Assembly (NCBI GenBank): GCA_016125355.1
Contig: WGLX01000023.1
Coordinates: forward strand, 1 to 40,051
DNA length: 40,051 bases
Direction of reading: 5' to 3'
From: Actinomycetales bacterium
GTDB lineage: Bacteria; Actinomycetota; Actinomycetes; S36-B12
Below the pieces are notes generated by a model. It ran no database searches. It was not told where the DNA came from and saw only the letters and a program-made list of their open reading frames with translations. Shown here one piece after another: positions 29,061-37,357 of this stretch; within the stretch, counting starts at the first letter, position 1; each line of letters begins with the position of its first letter. The position numbers and the translations under genes are program-made.

Positions 29061-30158
29061 GTGCGGGTTCTCACGCTTGCCGGCTCGGGGGCGCAGCGCG
29101 GCCTTGACTACGGACGCGAGGAGGCGGCAGCCATCGCCGCCGCGGTCACCGCGCTCAAGACGCACCTCGCGTCCCTCGGCCACTCGCCGGGTGCGCTCAT
29201 GCGGCGCCTCGCCACCGGTCCGCTCCCACGGGCAGCCGCCGACCTGACGCCGGAGCTCTGGGCCGAGACCATCGCCATGGCGCAGGGCGCGCGCGTGGGC
29301 CTGGACGAGGTCCTCCTCCTGGTCTTCGCCTCCGACCTCGACTCCTACGCGGGCACCGCAACGGCGTCCCCCGACGGGCTCGGCGGACCCAGCGCCTCGT
29401 TCGGCGCCTCGGCGATCGCCCGCCAGGTGCCGGGCCGTCCCGGCGACACGGGTGGCGGCGGCCTCGCGGGCCAGGCACGCCCGCCGGTGCCCCCGACCAC
29501 CGAGATCGGGCAGACCGTGGACCTGCCCGACTGGGCGCGCGATCGCGCACTCGTGCTGCGCATCGGCGCCTACGACGCCCCCAATGCACTGGCACTGGCG
29601 TACCCGGGGTCCCTCGGGCTGTGCGGTGCCAACCAGTCCGGCCTCGGGGTGGCGACGACGGCTCTGCCATGGTCGGCGGTGGATGCGAAGGGGCTCGGGG
29701 TCACGTTCATCGTCAGGCACCTGCTCACCCTGGAGACCCTGGCCGCTGCCGAGAGCTTCCTCATGTCCGTGCCGCACGCCGTGGGTCGCTCGTACCTGAT
29801 CGCCGCGCCCGACGGGATCGCCTGCTACGAGGCCGACCCGGGGAACGTCATCCGGGTGCGCCCGGCGTCCGAGGTCGTGGCGCACACGGACCACCGCCTC
29901 GGTTCTGCCGACGCCGAGGGTGGGAACGCGACCGAGTCGTCGATGACTCGCCTGGCCACGCTGACCCGGGCCATGGATGCGCATGTGCCGCTGGCCGAGG
30001 CCCTCGGCGCGGATGTCCTGTGTGACGGATCGCGATGGCAGGACGCATTGATCACGTTCGGGGCCTTCCGCGCGGCCGGCGGCGAGGCATCGGCACGGTT
30101 CATCGCCGGAGACGCCTTGGCACGGGGGCGGGACTGGGATCGGCTCACCTACGTCTGA
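29061..30158 (+). CDS. C45/acyl-CoA:6-APA acyltransferase (AAT)-family Ntn-hydrolase homologue with altered nucleophile
   Basis: A 365-residue protein from GTG 29061. The pattern of an N-terminal helix with LDYGREEAAAI, VGLDEVLLLV, then VLRIGAYDAPNALALAYPGSLGLCGANQSGLGVATTAL and VVAHTDHRL follows the acyl-CoA:6-aminopenicillanate acyltransferase (peptidase C45) family of self-processing Ntn hydrolases. Family members expose an N-terminal Cys in a GCT-type motif. Here the matching stretch reads YAGTATAS (96-103), so Cys is replaced, possibly by Thr99. A Gly/Pro-rich insertion of about 40 residues (105-147) follows. Either it uses a Thr nucleophile or it is inactive. The 3' end overlaps the convergent HD gene by 10 bases. 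Confidence 0.72.
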   Translation: MRVLTLAGSGAQRGLDYGREEAAAIAAAVTALKTHLASLGHSPGALMRRLATGPLPRAAADLTPELWAETIAMAQGARVGLDEVLLLVFASDLDSYAGTATASPDGLGGPSASFGASAIARQVPGRPGDTGGGGLAGQARPPVPPTTEIGQTVDLPDWARDRALVLRIGAYDAPNALALAYPGSLGLCGANQSGLGVATTALPWSAVDAKGLGVTFIVRHLLTLETLAAAESFLMSVPHAVGRSYLIAAPDGIACYEADPGNVIRVRPASEVVAHTDHRLGSADAEGGNATESSMTRLATLTRAMDAHVPLAEALGADVLCDGSRWQDALITFGAFRAAGGEASARFIAGDALARGRDWDRLTYV

Positions 30159-30805: not shown

Positions 30806-30910
30806 TCGACCTGAGCCGGTGAACCGAGACCGAATCGTTGCCTAAGCACGGAACGGGGCCGTCCACCGGTGGCGTCGCATGGGCAGGACAGCACGGATGG
30901 AGGAGGAACC

Positions 30911-31834
30911 ATGCGGGCACGTGCGGCAGCAGCTCTTCTGGCGACAGGCTTGATCCTCGCGGGTTGCTCGACGACCGGGGATTCGGGGGCGGCCGAGCCG
31001 GCCGTCATGGCCCCCGACACGATGGTCGAGGGCGCATCCCCGGCGGACGCCGGCGCAGCGGTGGATGGGGGCGCGGTCGCGCCGGAGAGAGCCGGCGCCG
31101 CTCCCGGCGAGGTGACGACATCGACCACCGTGGCGGACCGGCAGATCATCAGGAACGGATACCTGTCGATGAGGGTCGAGGACGTGCGCCGGTCCGCCGC
31201 GCAGGTGCGCGGACTCACGTCGGCCGCGGGCGGCCTCATCGTCTCCGAGGACGTCGGTGCCTCGGGCGACAGCGCCTACGCCACCATCCAGGCACAGGTT
31301 CCTGCCGATCGGCTCGATCGGTTCATCGAGGATGTCTCCGCCCTCGGCACCGTCGACTCCGTCACCCTGTCGGCATCGGACGTGACCGCCCAGGTCGTGG
31401 ATCTCGACGCCCGCATCGACGCCCTCCACACCAGCATCACCCGGTTGACGCAGCTGCTGGCGCAGGCGAATCGCATCGAGGACCTCCTGGCCATCGAGAC
31501 ACAGCTGGCCCAGCGGCAGAGTGAGCTGGACGGCCTTTCCGCCCAGCGGAAGTACCTCGCCGACCAGGTGGCGATGTCGACCCTCACGGTGACCCTCGCC
31601 CCTCTCACGGAGCTTCCCGAGGTGGATGCGCCGGGCTTCCTCCAGGGCCTGAAGAGCGGCTGGGCGGCGTTCGTCGCCCTCGTCATGGTGGCCGTCACCG
31701 CGGTCGGCTTCATGCTGCCGTGGCTGGTCCTGCTGGCGCTCGTGGCCGTGCCAATCGCGATCCTCGCGGCGCGCCATGCCCGGCGGCGACGGCACGAGCC
31801 CACTGCCCGGCCCGAGGACGAGCAGCCCTCCTAG
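30911..31834 (+). CDS. DUF4349 membrane-anchored lipoprotein
   Basis: A 307-residue protein from ATG 30911, with GGAGGA five bases upstream; a longer frame to 30869 is not supported. The signal peptide ends in lipobox LILAGC (Cys19). A low-complexity Ala/Gly/Asp linker (20-70) leads to the DUF4349 domain (RQIIRNGYLSMRVEDVRRSAAQVRGLTSAAGG, ATIQAQVPADRLDRFIEDVSALG, DVTAQVVDLDARIDAL), a coiled coil (LLAQANRIEDLLAIETQLAQRQSEL), a transmembrane helix pair near 250-290 and a basic tail. The family is widespread with no known reaction. It is convergent with the I78-like operon, 11 bases apart. Confidence 0.9.
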   Translation: MRARAAAALLATGLILAGCSTTGDSGAAEPAVMAPDTMVEGASPADAGAAVDGGAVAPERAGAAPGEVTTSTTVADRQIIRNGYLSMRVEDVRRSAAQVRGLTSAAGGLIVSEDVGASGDSAYATIQAQVPADRLDRFIEDVSALGTVDSVTLSASDVTAQVVDLDARIDALHTSITRLTQLLAQANRIEDLLAIETQLAQRQSELDGLSAQRKYLADQVAMSTLTVTLAPLTELPEVDAPGFLQGLKSGWAAFVALVMVAVTAVGFMLPWLVLLALVAVPIAILAARHARRRRHEPTARPEDEQPS

Positions 31835-31845
31835 GGCAGCGGCCG

Positions 31846-32742
31846 TTACCCGTACGTGCAGGACGTGACGGCGCCGCCTTCCAGGGCGAGGGTGAACCGG
31901 TCGGGCCGGTAGTCCAAGGTGACGGCGAACTGCTCGCCATCGGCACTGCCCACGCGGGTCGTGTAGCCGCTCTCGGCGGCGAAGGCAGCAGCCTGGTCAG
32001 CCGTCATCCGCTCATCGGCCATCTGCTGGCACATGCCCACCATCTGTGCCGAGCCGGCCACCGTCGGCTCGCCCGGGACCTGCTCGAGGGAGCGCGCGAC
32101 ATGCAGCAGCTGCCGATAGGTCAGGCCCGACGACCGGACGACCACCGCCGTGGTTCCCGGAGCCGTCATGGTCGACGCCGGCCGCATGGTGAACGAAACG
32201 GCGCCGCCGCGGCGCAGGACATCCGACCGCGAGCAGGGCCGCGCGGACGGGATGACGTCACCCCGCGTGCGGACCGGACCGCAGTTCGCATAGACCGTGG
32301 CGCGCACCGAGTAGCGCATTCCGGGCACTCCGAGTCGCAGCGTCACCCGATCGACGACGGCGGCGCGCGGGCCGAGATCAGGGGCCACCGCCCAGCGGGT
32401 CCCCGACCACTTCTCCTGCACGGTCAGGGTCGACGCTTCCCCTCCGTACGTCGCACTCGCGTATGTCGACCCCCCGGTGACCGCACCCCTCGCGAACGTC
32501 AGGGCGTCCGCGACCACATCGAGACCGCGTGCTGACGCAAGGCTGGCCGTCCACGTGGGCTTCCACAGGGAACCGGCCACGCCCAGCGTGCTGGCCGCGT
32601 TGTCCCACGACCCGACGCGGGTGTTCACGTCCTGGGGAGCCGCAGTCGCCGGACCGCTGCCCCACAGGGCGATGCCGGCGAGTGCCACGGCCGCGACCGC
32701 GACCTGCGTCGTGCGCACAGGCGCTGCCATCATCCTGCTCAT
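31846..32742 (-). CDS. Secreted two-domain protein with C-terminal I78-inhibitor-like domain
   Basis: A 298-residue protein from ATG 32742, which overlaps the stop of the preceding lipoprotein gene (ATGA); the frame above it is a shadow. Signal peptide 1-35 (VAVAAVALAGIALWGSGPATAA). Residues 36-225 are a beta-rich domain I do not recognise, with Cys154 and Cys170. Residues 237-298 repeat the C-terminus of the preceding lipoprotein: about 34 of 62 positions are identical by eye, including Cys238 and Cys295. The end VTLDYRPDRFTLALEGG resembles the reactive region of peptidase inhibitor family I78 (TMD-x-RPDRLN). It is the last gene of a four-gene operon. Confidence 0.75.
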   Translation of the reverse strand: MSRMMAAPVRTTQVAVAAVALAGIALWGSGPATAAPQDVNTRVGSWDNAASTLGVAGSLWKPTWTASLASARGLDVVADALTFARGAVTGGSTYASATYGGEASTLTVQEKWSGTRWAVAPDLGPRAAVVDRVTLRLGVPGMRYSVRATVYANCGPVRTRGDVIPSARPCSRSDVLRRGGAVSFTMRPASTMTAPGTTAVVVRSSGLTYRQLLHVARSLEQVPGEPTVAGSAQMVGMCQQMADERMTADQAAAFAAESGYTTRVGSADGEQFAVTLDYRPDRFTLALEGGAVTSCTYG

Positions 32743-33140
32743 CCGTAGGTGCAGGACACGACGACTCCACCCTCTACGTCGAAGGTGAAGCGGTCCTCGC
32801 GATAGTCCATCGTGACGGCCTGCGGCGCACCCTCGAGGGTGCCCACGCGAGCGGTGTACCCGTTCTGCTCGGCCAGCGAGGTCGCCTCGTCCGGAGTCAT
32901 CCCGCCACTGACCATCTGGTCGCACAGGGCGCGCATGTCCGCGGTGCCCGCGACCCCGGCACCCGCCGCGTCTGCCGACGCGGCAGCAGCAGCCGCCGAG
33001 GATGCCGCGTCGATCGCGCCGACCGGTCCGCTCGCAGCGTCGTCCGAGGAGCAGGCGGCGACCACCCCGGAGGCCAGGGTGAGGCCCACGATCATGGCGG
33101 CGGCTCGCAGGACGCTCGAGCGGTTCCAGGTTGCGGTCAT
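32739..33140 (-). CDS. Lipoprotein with I78-inhibitor-like domain
   Basis: A 133-residue protein from ATG 33140, overlapping the RDD gene stop (ATGA). Signal peptide with lipobox VVAAC (Cys30), an Ala/Ser-rich linker (31-66), then a small domain 67-133: CDQMVSGGMTPDEATSLAEQNGY followed by ARVGTLEG and AVTMDYREDRFTFDVEGGVVVSC. The TMDYR-x-DR-x-x-x-x-V stretch matches the I78 peptidase inhibitor pattern, and the helix with MTPDEA resembles the I78 N-terminal helix. Cys73 and Cys130 could form a disulfide. Its stop overlaps the next gene, whose C-terminus is a paralogous copy. Protease inhibition is inference. Confidence 0.75.
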   Translation of the reverse strand: MTATWNRSSVLRAAAMIVGLTLASGVVAACSSDDAASGPVGAIDAASSAAAAAASADAAGAGVAGTADMRALCDQMVSGGMTPDEATSLAEQNGYTARVGTLEGAPQAVTMDYREDRFTFDVEGGVVVSCTYG

Positions 33141-33793
33141 GTCGCTTCTCCTTGTTCTGCGGCGGTCTGGAGGGGGGTCGTGTCTCGTGACCCGATGGTG
33201 ACGTCGGGCCCGGCCGGGGTATCGGACCACGTCGGCGAGCGGCGCAGGCCCGGGATCCCGACCACCCAGTCGTAGATCACGCTGGTGCGCAGGACCACGT
33301 CCTGCACCGACCGGTTGGCGCCGCTGACGATCGACCAGGCGAGCCCGATCGGGAAGACGGTGCAGAAGACGGCGCGGGTGAACGCCCCTACCCAGGACGG
33401 ATGCTCGCCCTTGCGGTTCACCACCCGCAGCCCCATGACGAGGTTGCCCACGGTGCGGCCCGACGTCGCCCAGAAGACGGTCCAGTACAGGACGTTGAGG
33501 CCGTAGCCGTACAGGATCATGACCGCCACGCGGGGCACGCGCTGCTGGAGGTTCAGTGCATCGGACTGCGCATTGAGGGGCTGGACGATGAAGGACACCA
33601 TCCAGATGACCGCCACAGTGCCCAGCACCACGAGGAAGATCAGCAGGACGTCGATGCACGCGGCGATCGCACGGCTCACGAATCCGGCCCGATTGCCCTG
33701 CAGCGGCACCGCGTAGGACGGCAGCGCCGGCAGCGTGTGCGCGGGTGTCACCCCCCGATCGAGATCCTCGCGGTACTCCCGGAACGTGGTCAT
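33137..33793 (-). CDS. RDD family membrane protein
   Basis: A 218-residue protein from ATG 33793, overlapping the stop of the repeat-protein gene (ATGA). The RDD domain spans about 35-165: GFVSRAIAACIDVLLIFLVVLG with Arg and Asp in helix 1, further helices with VLYWTVFWATSGRTVGNLVMGLRVVN, the usual TxGKxxxGL-like loop, and VQDVVLRTSVIYDW. The C-terminal 45 residues are hydrophilic. RDD proteins are suspected transporters; some act as Na+/H+ antiporters. The gene sits in the middle of the four-gene operon 34404 to 31846. Confidence 0.92.
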   Translation of the reverse strand: MTTFREYREDLDRGVTPAHTLPALPSYAVPLQGNRAGFVSRAIAACIDVLLIFLVVLGTVAVIWMVSFIVQPLNAQSDALNLQQRVPRVAVMILYGYGLNVLYWTVFWATSGRTVGNLVMGLRVVNRKGEHPSWVGAFTRAVFCTVFPIGLAWSIVSGANRSVQDVVLRTSVIYDWVVGIPGLRRSPTWSDTPAGPDVTIGSRDTTPLQTAAEQGEAT

Positions 33794-34404
33794 GACAGGG
33801 ACTCCGGGGTGCCCGGGGCATCGAGCTTGCGTCCCTTGCGGAAGGTCGCCCGGTCGACGATGCGAGACACGAGGTCATCGGCGCCAGCGGACTGGCGTCG
33901 CATCGTGTTGAGGGCATCACCGGCGATCCCGCTCGTCGAGTCGCGGATGATCTGCGGCAGGTTGATCTCGTCGATGACGTAGTTGGCCAAGGGCAGGATC
34001 GGGACCCGATCGATCACCGCATCGATGTCGGCCTCGGCCACGATGGCGTTGACGTCGACCCGCTGGATAACCAGGTCGGTCAGGTCGAGCGAGTCCAGCG
34101 CGGACTCGACGATCCGATGCAGGTCCACGCGCTCGAGCACGAGGTCCGTGAGGTCGATGCGCTCGATGACAGCATCCGCGATCACCGGCACCAGCCGATC
34201 GAGCGAGGCGTTCACGACGTTGGCGACCGGGGTGACGATCGCCTGCTCGGCCAGCGCGGCCATCGTGGCCGCCGTGCCCGCGGCCATGCCCACGGTGCTG
34301 GCCAGCAGCACCCGCAGCGCCTCGAGCGGAGTCGGCGCCGGCGCGGGAACGGGACGGGTCACGAGGATCACCTCACCCGGCATCAACGGTTCCGGCTCGT
34401 CCAC
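33790..34404 (-). CDS. RDD-linked protein with ten-residue Asp/Val repeats
   Basis: A 204-residue protein from GTG 34404. A Pro-rich N-terminus (1-26) precedes an Ala-rich hydrophobic segment (28-56). Residues 75-150 contain a series of roughly ten-residue repeats: VIERIDLTDL, VLERVDLHRI, SLDLTDL, VIQRVDVNAI, EADIDAV, IDRVPILP, VIDEINLPQI. The tail has MRRQSAGADDLVSRIVDRATFRKGRK. Repeats of this type seem to recur beside RDD genes in actinobacteria (from memory). No catalytic motif is seen. CATGAT lies six bases before the GTG, so the mRNA may be leaderless. The ATGA overlap with the RDD gene makes it the first gene of the operon. Confidence 0.72.
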   Translation of the reverse strand: MDEPEPLMPGEVILVTRPVPAPAPTPLEALRVLLASTVGMAAGTAATMAALAEQAIVTPVANVVNASLDRLVPVIADAVIERIDLTDLVLERVDLHRIVESALDSLDLTDLVIQRVDVNAIVAEADIDAVIDRVPILPLANYVIDEINLPQIIRDSTSGIAGDALNTMRRQSAGADDLVSRIVDRATFRKGRKLDAPGTPESLS

Positions 34405-34504: not shown

Positions 34505-35047
34505 CTACTCGGCGACCAGCGGCCCGGTCTTCGCCGTCGGGAAGTAGTCCTGGCCGATCCCACTGGTGCGCTTGGGGATCATCACGGAGCGGAACCACGA
34601 CACGACCTCGTCCCCGTCCTGGTTCAGGCCCCGCGTCTTCATCCTGATGATGCCCATCTGGGGTCGCGAGGAGCTCTCCCTCTTGTCGAGGCAGATCGAC
34701 TCGGCGTAGATCGTGTCGCCGATGTACACCGGGTGGGTGAGCTTGATGTCCGTCCAGCCGAGGTTGGCGACGGCGTTCTGGCTCATGTCGATGACCGACA
34801 GGCCGAGAACGAGCGCGACCGTGAGGCCGGAGTTGACGATGATCCGACCCTGGGTGATCGGGTTCGACTGGGCGAGGTCGGCGTTGAAGTGGTTCTGGTT
34901 CGTGTTACAGGTCAGCAGCGTGAACCACGTCGAGTCGGCCTCGGAGATGGTCCGGCCGAACGGGTGCTGGTAGACGGTGCCGACCTCGAAGTCCTCGAAG
35001 AAGCGACCGAGCTGGGCAGGGACGACGGTGGGGTTCTCTTCGCTCAT
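34505..35047 (-). CDS. MaoC family hot-dog-fold hydratase
   Basis: A 180-residue protein from ATG 35047, with GGAAGG eight bases upstream; the long frame above it is a shadow of moxR. One hot-dog domain: FFEDFEVGTVYQHPFGRTISEAD, the active-site helix WFTLLTCNTNQNHFNAD (41-57), ITQGRIIVNSGLTVALVLGLS and HPVYIGDTIYAES. Canonical MaoC hydratases have D-x-N-P-x-H in the active site; here it reads N-T-N-Q-N-H (N48, H53), as in some mesaconyl-CoA hydratase-like members. An acyl-CoA substrate is likely, but its identity is unknown. It is divergent from moxR across a 55-base spacer. The 100-base stretch 34405-34504 downstream contains only the repeat-protein promoter. Confidence 0.85.
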   Translation of the reverse strand: MSEENPTVVPAQLGRFFEDFEVGTVYQHPFGRTISEADSTWFTLLTCNTNQNHFNADLAQSNPITQGRIIVNSGLTVALVLGLSVIDMSQNAVANLGWTDIKLTHPVYIGDTIYAESICLDKRESSSRPQMGIIRMKTRGLNQDGDEVVSWFRSVMIPKRTSGIGQDYFPTAKTGPLVAE

Positions 35048-35102: not shown

Positions 35103-36104
35103 ATGACCATGACGCAGCAGGGCGGCACACCGGGATCCGAGGGACCGGACACGGGCCTCGGGGAGTTCGGCCCCGAGGCGGCGCGCACGATCGCAGCCGA
35201 GATCGCCGGGAGCATGGGCACCGTCATCTCCGGCAAGCCGCAGGCCATTCGGCTGGCGCTCGTCGCCCTGCTCGCGGAGGGGCACCTGCTGATCGAGGAC
35301 GTGCCAGGCGTCGGCAAGACCATGCTGGCCAAGTCGCTCGCCCGCAGCATCGACTGCTCCATGCACCGCATCCAGTTCACCCCCGACCTCCTGCCGAGCG
35401 ACGTGACCGGTGTCAGCGTGTTCGACCGCCAGACCAGCTCCTTCGAGTTCCGGCCCGGAGCGGTGTTCGCCCACATCGTCCTCGGCGACGAGATCAACCG
35501 GGCCTCCCCCAAGACCCAGTCCGCCCTACTCGAGGCCATGGAGGAGCAGCAGGTCACCGTCGATGGACAGACCTACCAGCTGCCGCAGCCGTTCATGGTC
35601 ATCGCGACCCAGAACCCGGTCGAGATGGAGGGGACGTACCCCCTGCCCGAGGCCCAGCGGGACCGGTTCCTCATGCAGATCCAGCTCGGCTACCCCGACC
35701 GGGTCGCCGAGATCGCGATGCTCGACAGCCACGACATCGCCGACCCGATCGCGGCGCTGCGGCCCGTGACGGATGCCGCGACACTGCAGCGCCTTCGGGA
35801 TGTGGCCCGGGGCGTGTTCGCCTCCCCCGCCGTCAAGCAGTACGTGGTGGACCTGGTGGCGGCCACCCGGCGTGATCCGCTCCTCCGCCTCGGCGCCTCA
35901 CCGCGGGCCGGCGTGCACCTCCTCCAGGCCGCCCGCGCCCACGCACTGCTCGCCGGACGCGACCATGCCCTTCCCGACGACGTGCAGGCACTGGCCGTCC
36001 CCGTGCTCGCCCACCGCGTCCTGCTGTCCCCCGAGGCCCACCTCAGCCGCACCCCGGCCGCGACGGTGATCACCGAGGTGGTCGCGAGGGTGTCCGTGCC
36101 GTGA
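35103..36104 (+). CDS. MoxR family AAA+ ATPase
   Basis: A 333-residue chaperone-like ATPase. ATG 35103 is given; ATG 35109, two codons on, is better spaced from GAGGA and may be the real start. Walker A: EDVPGVGKTMLAKSLA (65-80); Walker B: HIVLGDEINRASPKTQSALLEAMEE; pre-sensor MVIATQNPVEMEGTYPLPEAQRDRFLMQ; lid domain with GASPRAGVHLLQAARAHALLAGRD. MoxR proteins act with DUF58/vWA proteins in maturation or assembly of envelope complexes. The stop overlaps the DUF58 start (GTGA), so the two are translationally coupled. Confidence 0.95.
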   Translation: MTMTQQGGTPGSEGPDTGLGEFGPEAARTIAAEIAGSMGTVISGKPQAIRLALVALLAEGHLLIEDVPGVGKTMLAKSLARSIDCSMHRIQFTPDLLPSDVTGVSVFDRQTSSFEFRPGAVFAHIVLGDEINRASPKTQSALLEAMEEQQVTVDGQTYQLPQPFMVIATQNPVEMEGTYPLPEAQRDRFLMQIQLGYPDRVAEIAMLDSHDIADPIAALRPVTDAATLQRLRDVARGVFASPAVKQYVVDLVAATRRDPLLRLGASPRAGVHLLQAARAHALLAGRDHALPDDVQALAVPVLAHRVLLSPEAHLSRTPAATVITEVVARVSVP

Positions 36105-37357
36105 CCGCCCGGGGTCGAGCCGTCCTCGTGGTCGGGCTCCTGCTGGCCGGCGTGGGCTGGGGCCTGGGGCAGCCGCCTGTGATCGGCGTCGCTGCGATCC
36201 TGTTCGTGCTGCCGCTGGTCGGTCTCATCAGCGTGCGCCGATCCCGCTACCGCCTGGGGGCCGTCCGCACGGTCGATCCGGAGCAGTTCGCGGTCGGCGA
36301 GACCGCCGAGGTACGCCTGCTCGTCGAGAACGACTCCCTCCTGCCCACCGGGTCACTGCTGCTGCGGGACGAGGTCTCCGAGGCCCTGGGCGAGCCGACC
36401 CGCCTCCTCCTGGACCGCATTCCCTCGCGGGCGCAGCGCATCGTCCGCTACCCCGTCATCGGCCAGACCCGCGGTCGCACCCGCGTGGGGCCGCTGTCGG
36501 TCACCGCCGTCGACCCGTTCGGCATGGCGCGCCTGACCCGGTCCTTCACCGAGAGCAACCACGTGCTCGTCACCCCGAGGATCGTCCCTCTCGGCGCCGT
36601 GCCGACCGCCCGCATGGTGGGTGGCCACGGCGAGTCCCAGTCCCGCTCCATCGCCACCCGGGGCGAGGACGACTCCCTGCCGCGCGAGCACCAGCCCGGT
36701 GACGACATGCGGCGCATCCACTGGCGGGCCACGGCGAAGTCGGGCGAGCTCATGGTCCGCCGGGAGGAGCGGGCCTGGCGGGCCACCGCGACCGTGGTCC
36801 TCGACGACCGGGCGCACGCCCATCACGGTCGTGGCGCGGCCTCCACCTTCGAGTGGGCGGTCAGCGCGGCCGCGAGCATCGCGGTGCACTACTTCGAGCA
36901 CGGCTGGCGGGTGCAGGCGGTCACCACCACGGGCCGGGCGCTGGTCCACGTGGGCGTGGGGGCGCCCGGGGAGCTGGAGCTGCTGCTGGAGTCGTTCGCC
37001 GATGCTGAGCTTCACGACGCACCTTGGGGGAAGATCGGCCAGGGTGCTGCGGTGCCGGCCGCCATCGGTTCCCGCATCGACCCGGGGATCGGGCCGGACG
37101 CCACGGCCGTCGTGGCCGTCATGGGCGATCTCGCCGACGACCCCGCGGTGCTCCTCCCGGCCCGGGGCTCGGGCTTCGCCGGGTGCCTGGCCTATGACCC
37201 GCACGGCACCGACGCCGCCGCCTCCACGATGCGTGCCCGCGGCTGGCGCGTCGGAGCGTGGTCGTCGACAACCGATGTGGCCGAGGCCTGGCGGCGGATC
37301 GCCCCCTCGTCGTCGAGCCCGCTGGGCGCCGTGCCGGTCGGTGGGGCGGCCCCATGA
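36101..37357 (+). CDS. DUF58 domain membrane protein
   Basis: A 418-residue protein from GTG 36101. Two N-terminal transmembrane helices (about 5-45) are followed by a beta-rich region (RYRLGAVRTVDPEQFAVGETAEVRLLVEN, IGQTRGRTRVGPLSVTAVDPFGMARLTRSF) and the DUF58 core DSLPREHQPGDDMRRIHWRATAKSGELMVRREE, then a vWA-like fold with VVLDDR. The family partners with MoxR ATPases and with transglutaminase-like membrane proteins, exactly the arrangement here. Start and stop both overlap neighbours (GTGA, ATGA). Molecular role unknown. Confidence 0.95.
   Translation: MTARGRAVLVVGLLLAGVGWGLGQPPVIGVAAILFVLPLVGLISVRRSRYRLGAVRTVDPEQFAVGETAEVRLLVENDSLLPTGSLLLRDEVSEALGEPTRLLLDRIPSRAQRIVRYPVIGQTRGRTRVGPLSVTAVDPFGMARLTRSFTESNHVLVTPRIVPLGAVPTARMVGGHGESQSRSIATRGEDDSLPREHQPGDDMRRIHWRATAKSGELMVRREERAWRATATVVLDDRAHAHHGRGAASTFEWAVSAAASIAVHYFEHGWRVQAVTTTGRALVHVGVGAPGELELLLESFADAELHDAPWGKIGQGAAVPAAIGSRIDPGIGPDATAVVAVMGDLADDPAVLLPARGSGFAGCLAYDPHGTDAAASTMRARGWRVGAWSSTTDVAEAWRRIAPSSSSPLGAVPVGGAAP

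Follow-up and report, generated by a model that had tools for sequence, protein, structure and literature searches.

A four-gene envelope locus of an uncultured actinobacterium encodes two paralogous proteins with predicted CI-2/I78-type inhibitor domains

Introduction

Protein science has long used canonical inhibitors with the CI-2 fold as classic tools, and the best-known ones come from plants and leech. In one of them, eglin c, the P1 residue is a leucine. CI-2 and eglin c belong to the potato inhibitor I family (PF00280), which we take to be MEROPS I13, and the I78 inhibitors (PF11720) are small free proteins. Here we describe a locus of four genes in a stretch of 40,051 nucleotides from an Actinomycetales bacterium (assembly GCA_016125355.1, contig WGLX01000023.1, positions 1 to 40,051), hereafter called the window. 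The last two genes of this locus, genes 3 and 4, encode proteins predicted to be exported, which end in a domain that we place, from sequence profiles and a predicted structure, between potato inhibitor I (CI-2, eglin) and I78. They are probably envelope inhibitors of serine-proteases added to an older pair made of a repeat protein (gene 1) and an RDD-family membrane protein (gene 2).

A link between RDD proteins and protease inhibition has been described elsewhere. SppI, an RDD-family protein of Bacillus subtilis, is reported to inhibit the membrane protease SppA (PMC7568657), and a different RDD protein is reported to be a cation antiporter (PMC5996927). The functions of RDD proteins differ, and neither can be directly transferred to gene 2. 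The locus resembles the SppI-SppA system in that an operon with an RDD membrane protein would be tied to protease inhibition. It differs from it in two respects: the window genome has no SppA match, and in B. subtilis it is the RDD protein itself that inhibits. Among the open-licence PubMed Central papers listed for I78, RDD, CI-2, AFLEI, eglin, potato inhibitor I and Nanopelagicales, none was seen to describe the four-gene set.

Results

The features of the locus are the following.

34404-33790, minus strand: gene 1, GTG start, 204 residues, ten-residue-repeat protein.
33793-33137, minus strand: gene 2, 218 residues, RDD-family membrane protein (PF06271).
33140-32739, minus strand: gene 3, 133-residue lipoprotein (lipobox VAAC, by eye) with a C-terminal CI-2/I78-like domain, predicted P1 Met.
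32742-31846, minus strand: gene 4, 298 residues, predicted secreted (signal peptide by eye), with an N-terminal MucB/LpqN-like and a C-terminal CI-2/I78-like domain.
32742-32954, minus strand: inhibitor-like domain of gene 3, 71 residues, TMDYREDR loop.
31849-32061, minus strand: inhibitor-like domain of gene 4, TLDYRPDR loop, predicted P1 Leu.
32068-32640, minus strand: N-terminal alpha/beta domain of gene 4, with VIA-align structure matches (MucB, LpqN) and no sequence family.

The tails of the products of genes 3 and 4 are paralogous (BLASTP 39/71 identical, 74.3 bits, E 2e-21). A reading made from the sequence only, which preceded this work, had counted about 34 identities in the final 62 residues, and our recount by eye agrees; the cysteine pair and the T(M/L)DYRxDR stretch that it had pointed out are indeed kept in both tails. 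In sequence register, the P2 Thr, the P1' acid, the bracing Arg and the C-terminal Gly are all present in the window domains.

In the AlphaFold model of gene 4, the tail starts with two helices and a strand, followed by a loop and then two further strands. When this model was compared with known structures using VIA-align, CI-2, eglin c and plant inhibitors fell on the tail, mostly on residues 225-298, with Z from 6.3 to 7.3 and a root-mean-square deviation (rmsd) of 1.9-2.9 in all listed inhibitor rows save one (3.8). CI-2 (7a1h) superimposes with Z 7.3 and rmsd 2.3 over 60 of 64 residues, and eglin c (4b2a) with Z 7.0 and rmsd 1.9 over 61 residues. In the profile alignment, the family stretch T-M-D-Y-R-x-D-R falls on T-M-E-Y-R-I-D-R of CI-2, where the PDB titles number the aligned residues T58, M59, E60, R62 and R65. 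From this register with CI-2, gene 3 would have Met as P1 and gene 4 would have Leu.

The loop was then examined in 38 distinct domains, the window copies being excluded. P2 is Thr in 37 of them, and P1' Asp and P6' Arg are found in all 38; the last residue is Gly in 38/38 by construction, since only Gly-ending domains were retained. At the presumed P1, we counted Met 26 times, Thr and Lys three times each, Ala and Glu twice each, and Ser and Leu once each. With seven residues seen and Met in 26/38, this position is variable in sequence without being hypervariable, and P4' is more variable. As for the cysteines, we used an alignment of 25 domains comprising the two window copies and 23 of 39 retrieved sequences (close duplicates and one out-of-frame row were omitted). 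Both cysteines are present in 21 rows and both absent in four, and a single one is never found. Such a joint gain or loss is as expected for a predicted disulfide, with the caution that the four cysteine-less rows are distant (31-46% identical to gene 3).

Of the 166 genomes of the order that were searched, 72 (counting the window's own) have a full or partial match to gene 4. PF00280 has no match in either window protein, and a PF11720 search of the window's genome gave two below-cut-off matches elsewhere and none at the locus. Among the 25 aligned rows, four are matched by PF00280 (best 4.8e-5) and four by PF11720 (best 1.5e-4), in both cases below the cut-off. The best row of each family came up again when seven relatives were scanned singly. 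For PF00280 this cut-off is 24.5 bits; a relative from the wider phylum (L099) passes it at 27.6 and one further relative (L076) misses it at 24.4. The profile of the 25 domains was also compared with nine I78 proteins of genus g57 (presumably Streptomyces), taken from genomes whose PF11720 matches all passed the Pfam cut-off. It matched them with a probability of 97.4 and E 1e-11 over 52 columns, and two other profiles from the locus, used as controls, gave probabilities of 0.1 and 0.3. At E 0.001, the same profile matches 14 of 296 phylum-sample genomes, five of which belong to the I78-bearing genus g57.

Searched against PDB sequences without any I78 row, the profile retrieved nine plant inhibitors with the CI-2 fold and four unrelated sequences, 13 in all; the top one was the trypsin inhibitor BGIT (E 0.013) and CI-2 appeared from 0.72. 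Once the I78 rows were added, 37 sequences were found, including CI-2 at 0.00088 for a mutant and 0.0052 for one of wild type, as well as 3w0d, an elastase inhibitor from Aspergillus, at E 0.0037, a result that is partly circular for I78.

Altogether, there is good support for placing the domain in the CI-2/I78 fold group, although this support does not come from a Pfam cut-off. The sequence-only reading had proposed an I78-like inhibitor. The predicted fold, the loop residues and the I78 profile match speak for it, but potato inhibitor I/CI-2 has an equal claim with I78 to be its closest relative. With PF00280 members the domain shares the predicted fold, the loop T-M/L-acid-Y-R-x-D-R in the register T58-M59-E60-..R62..R65 of CI-2, and the C-terminal Gly. 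Unlike them, it has an extra N-terminal helix, whose cysteine is predicted to pair with the C-terminal one, and unlike CI-2 and eglin c the window proteins are bacterial and predicted to be exported, one lipid-anchored and the other fused. The I78 proteins (PF11720; 3w0d; the 74-residue proteins of g57) have in common with them the pattern A ... G(Y/W) ... R ... T-M-(D/E)-Y-R ... R, but they are not fused or lipid-anchored as the window copies are.

The same kind of domain was also seen at the end of longer open frames in distant members of the phylum (L098, L099, L102, L104 and L110), L110 having seemingly two degenerate copies without the T-x-D loop. Stand-alone lipoproteins with an inhibitor-like domain, whose P1 would be Thr or Lys, are found at L072:5778-6125, L073:5530-5880 and L074:1096-1446, near genes that by eye are thiolase- and ArgK-like, with an Rrf2-like regulator in L072 and L073. 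At L078:3791-5335 (genus g13), an inhibitor-like lipoprotein gene comes after a DUF4349 homologue; these two kinds of gene also adjoin each other where the window locus ends, but at L078 they are in tandem.

The N-terminal domain of gene 4 had been described as beta-rich and unrecognised. No sequence family could be assigned to it, matches to Pfam and PDB sequences being at chance level, but its moderate-confidence model resembles the MucB C-terminal domain (VIA-align best Z 8.7, rmsd 3.5, 99 residues; other MucB rows Z 8.5 and 7.8) and LpqN (Z 7.2), with middling scores. Further rows include SciW (Z 7.1), and photosystem chain P and Mog1p (6.4-6.8). Since, according to the tool, a Z below 8 may reflect a common arrangement, we take the likeness of the predicted fold to MucB/RseB and LpqN, for which sequence similarity was not detected, as a lead.

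The first two genes form an old pair. Gene 2 encodes an RDD membrane protein, as first proposed (PF06271, 54.5 bits against a cut-off of 24.1). The ten-residue repeat of gene 1 is real, as judged from the self-similarity of residues 77-160 at shift 10 (z 3.4 among 28 shifts, 1/2000 shuffles as good) and from clean ten-residue units, of the type VDLDAVVARV, in longer homologues; shift 23 scores z 4.2 (0/2000 shuffles as good). The protein is predicted mostly helical at low confidence (predicted local distance difference test score (pLDDT) 53, predicted template modelling score 0.20). No signal peptide was seen by eye and no Pfam/NCBIfam family was found for gene 1; matches of its relatives were weak, scattered and differing between members, and were taken as chance. 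Homologues of gene 1 occur in 43 of 197 class-sample genomes. We took the 30 best, the window's own included, with one locus each and flanks of up to 1.5 kilobases (kb), leaving out 13 weaker ones. In 29 of these loci, gene 1 is followed by a same-strand RDD gene, the thirtieth ending at a contig edge. In two (L138, L139), the two proteins share one open frame, hinting that the partners touch. A MaoC match lies inside the flanks in five of the 30.

We then analyzed how the four genes are distributed, with genera and genomes designated below by our own g and G numbers. The window's genus is represented by 14 genomes, and in eight of them the locus reads 1-2-3-4 (among these eight, one gene 3 is partly N, one gene 4 lies in two frames and one gene 4 is cut by a contig end). 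Three others have 1-2-4 and two have 1-2-3, one of them near a contig end; the remaining genome gave no gene 4 match and its locus was not examined. In g10, the arrangement is MaoC-1-2-(other secreted gene)-gene 4 N-domain, without inhibitor tail, in six of nine genomes, two of the other three ending at a contig edge. The protein between the RDD protein and the N-domain in these genomes, in the place of gene 3, is a different secreted one of about 248 residues (L065:6822-7568, likewise L148, L149, L150, L152 and L153). In three of four g12 loci the N-domain was seen to come after the pair, in the fourth the match coordinates place it there too, and a fifth genome (G098) has the repeat-RDD pair and no N-domain match. 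The pair also occurs without a gene 4 match in g2 and g11 genomes (G029, G089, G091). Conversely, g5 and g14 carry a full gene 4 with neither repeat nor RDD gene in the fetched stretch in 12/12 loci, two of which are contigs of 3-4 kb.

Among the genomes examined, the inhibitor tail lies beside the repeat-RDD pair only in the window's genus. This distribution suggests that the pair is oldest, that the secreted N-domain is its companion in part of the family, and that the inhibitor domain came to the pair only in this genus. The four genes had been seen as one module. This is borne out in the majority of the genus genomes and also, if the inhibitor tail is left aside, in parts of two other genera, but the repeat-RDD pair is far older and the inhibitor domain is also found in other genera and places.

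Within the window, the genes run leftward from 34404 to 31846, and every one of the three junctions reads ATGA, a start/stop overlap, in agreement with the coupling first noted. The overlap between genes 1 and 2 (ATGA or GTGA) is kept in 9/9 related loci from metagenome-assembled genomes (MAGs), several of which are the same contigs as genomes in the genus sample; later junctions vary. Upstream of gene 1, at a distance of 100 bases, lies one more gene of the same strand.

34505-35047, minus strand: MaoC-like dehydratase gene, often found beside the repeat-RDD pair in this family.

Divergent genes for a MoxR-type ATPase (AAA_3) and a DUF58 protein adjoin it (35103-37357), and the same neighbours are seen in several genomes of the genus. 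Downstream of gene 4, a convergent DUF4349 gene (30869-31834) is likewise found in several of them. A gene with a penicillin acyltransferase-like domain (AAT, PF03417) lies at 29061-30158.

Discussion

We propose, with a probability of about 0.6, that genes 3 and 4 encode canonical serine-protease inhibitors of the envelope, of the CI-2/I78 fold, added to an older repeat-RDD locus. According to this proposal, the cell would export two paralogous standard-mechanism inhibitors, and the rigid loop of each domain would fit the active site of a protease like a poor substrate, with Met as P1 in the lipid-anchored copy and Leu in the secreted one. Asp and Arg residues next to the loop would brace it, and a predicted disulfide, Cys11-Cys68 in domain numbering, would close the structure by linking the first helix to the C-terminal strand. 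The gene 3 copy could guard the membrane surface, and the gene 4 copy would be carried by the MucB/LpqN-like domain. Both genes would have joined, in this genus, an older envelope locus made of the repeat protein and the RDD membrane protein. Inhibition by the two domains is likely, and the target would be a subtilisin- or chymotrypsin-like protease.

Several results weigh against this proposal. The mean pLDDT of the gene 4 model is 67, and 61 in the loop block. Foldseek alone gave for this model no PDB match at E <=0.001 and no CI-2 among the best 50 rows; the fold assignment depends on the re-ranking by VIA-align, with Z about 7, which the tool grades as middling. In library scans the products of genes 3 and 4 stayed below every Pfam and NCBIfam cut-off, and PASTA is also matched below cut-off by two of seven relatives scanned singly (E 0.05 and 0.028). 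Glu or Lys, found as P1 in some relatives, would be odd for chymotrypsin- or subtilisin-like targets. Moreover, 6/14 genomes of the genus gave no subtilase at E 1e-8, and the surroundings of nine other copies of the domain showed no recognisable endoprotease gene, by eye and with no family search (the first 70 residues of open reading frames were inspected, frames being picked by length and third-position GC content). At one locus (L045), an open reading frame about 3.3 kb away resembles a D-Ala-D-Ala carboxypeptidase.

As regards the possible targets, the sequence-only reading had thought of the control of a surface protease. The window genome has one S8 (subtilase) gene and three Trypsin_2 genes over cut-off (PF00089 was not searched). 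A subtilase match is present in 8/14 genomes of the genus; the six that lack one all carry gene 3 or gene 4, and four of them are 95-100% complete. A subtilase as obligatory partner was rejected on this ground, and a dedicated cellular subtilase is unlikely as a common target. Outside proteases seem likelier than such an enzyme, and the remaining candidates are the cell's own trypsin-fold enzymes and the proteases of competitors or grazers.

Other explanations have to be weighed against this one. The CI-2 fold could have been kept as a binding or sensing module, with gene 4 working like MucB/RseB or LpqN and reporting the state of the envelope to the RDD protein. The resemblance of the gene 4 N-domain to the MucB C-terminal domain and to LpqN would fit this idea, as would the presence of a secreted N-domain beside the repeat-RDD pair without inhibitor domain in g10 and g12, the Glu, Lys or Thr at P1 in some members and the degenerate pair of copies in L110. 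However, the MucB match is middling, close to unrelated rows such as SciW and without sequence support, and the loop-bracing residues are near-invariant in the 38 domains, which a mere fold would not require. We consider a sensing role unlikely. It is possible, if still on the improbable side, that the four genes are loose neighbours, the inhibitor genes being co-transcribed with the repeat-RDD pair but unrelated to it in function, an explanation compatible with the one we favour. Gene 4 homologues stand without repeat or RDD gene at all 12 loci of g5 and g14, and within the genus gene 3 is missing at the locus in 3/14 genomes and gene 4 in 2/14; on the other hand, the order is held in 8/14 of these genomes and the secreted domain lies beside the pair in three genera.

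Another assumption would be that the products of genes 3 and 4 bind physically to the repeat-RDD pair and control a membrane protease, much as SppI is reported to keep SppA inactive in B. subtilis (PMC7568657). The tight coupling of the genes and the fusion of the repeat and RDD genes in two genomes are consistent with such contacts. Yet no S49 (SppA) match was found in the window genome, which is 96% complete, and outside the genus none of the repeat-RDD loci that we examined showed the inhibitor domain; the domain also occurs away from such loci. In our opinion this assumption is very improbable.

Regardless of the function of genes 3 and 4, the repeat-RDD pair is an unnamed unit kept in many genomes of the class, sometimes fused, and it merits a functional study of its own. 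One may speculate that it is a widespread envelope unit with genus-specific exported accessories, and that the CI-2-type inhibitors found here point to a unit that is protease-sensitive or protease-controlled, though we hold this broader idea to be quite unlikely. As for the inhibitors that we propose, if they act as such, the existence of a lipid-anchored and a domain-fused form would suggest that uncultured actinobacteria protect the cell surface against proteases; the close relatives of the window genome are MAGs, and the sample names of some of them point to lakes.

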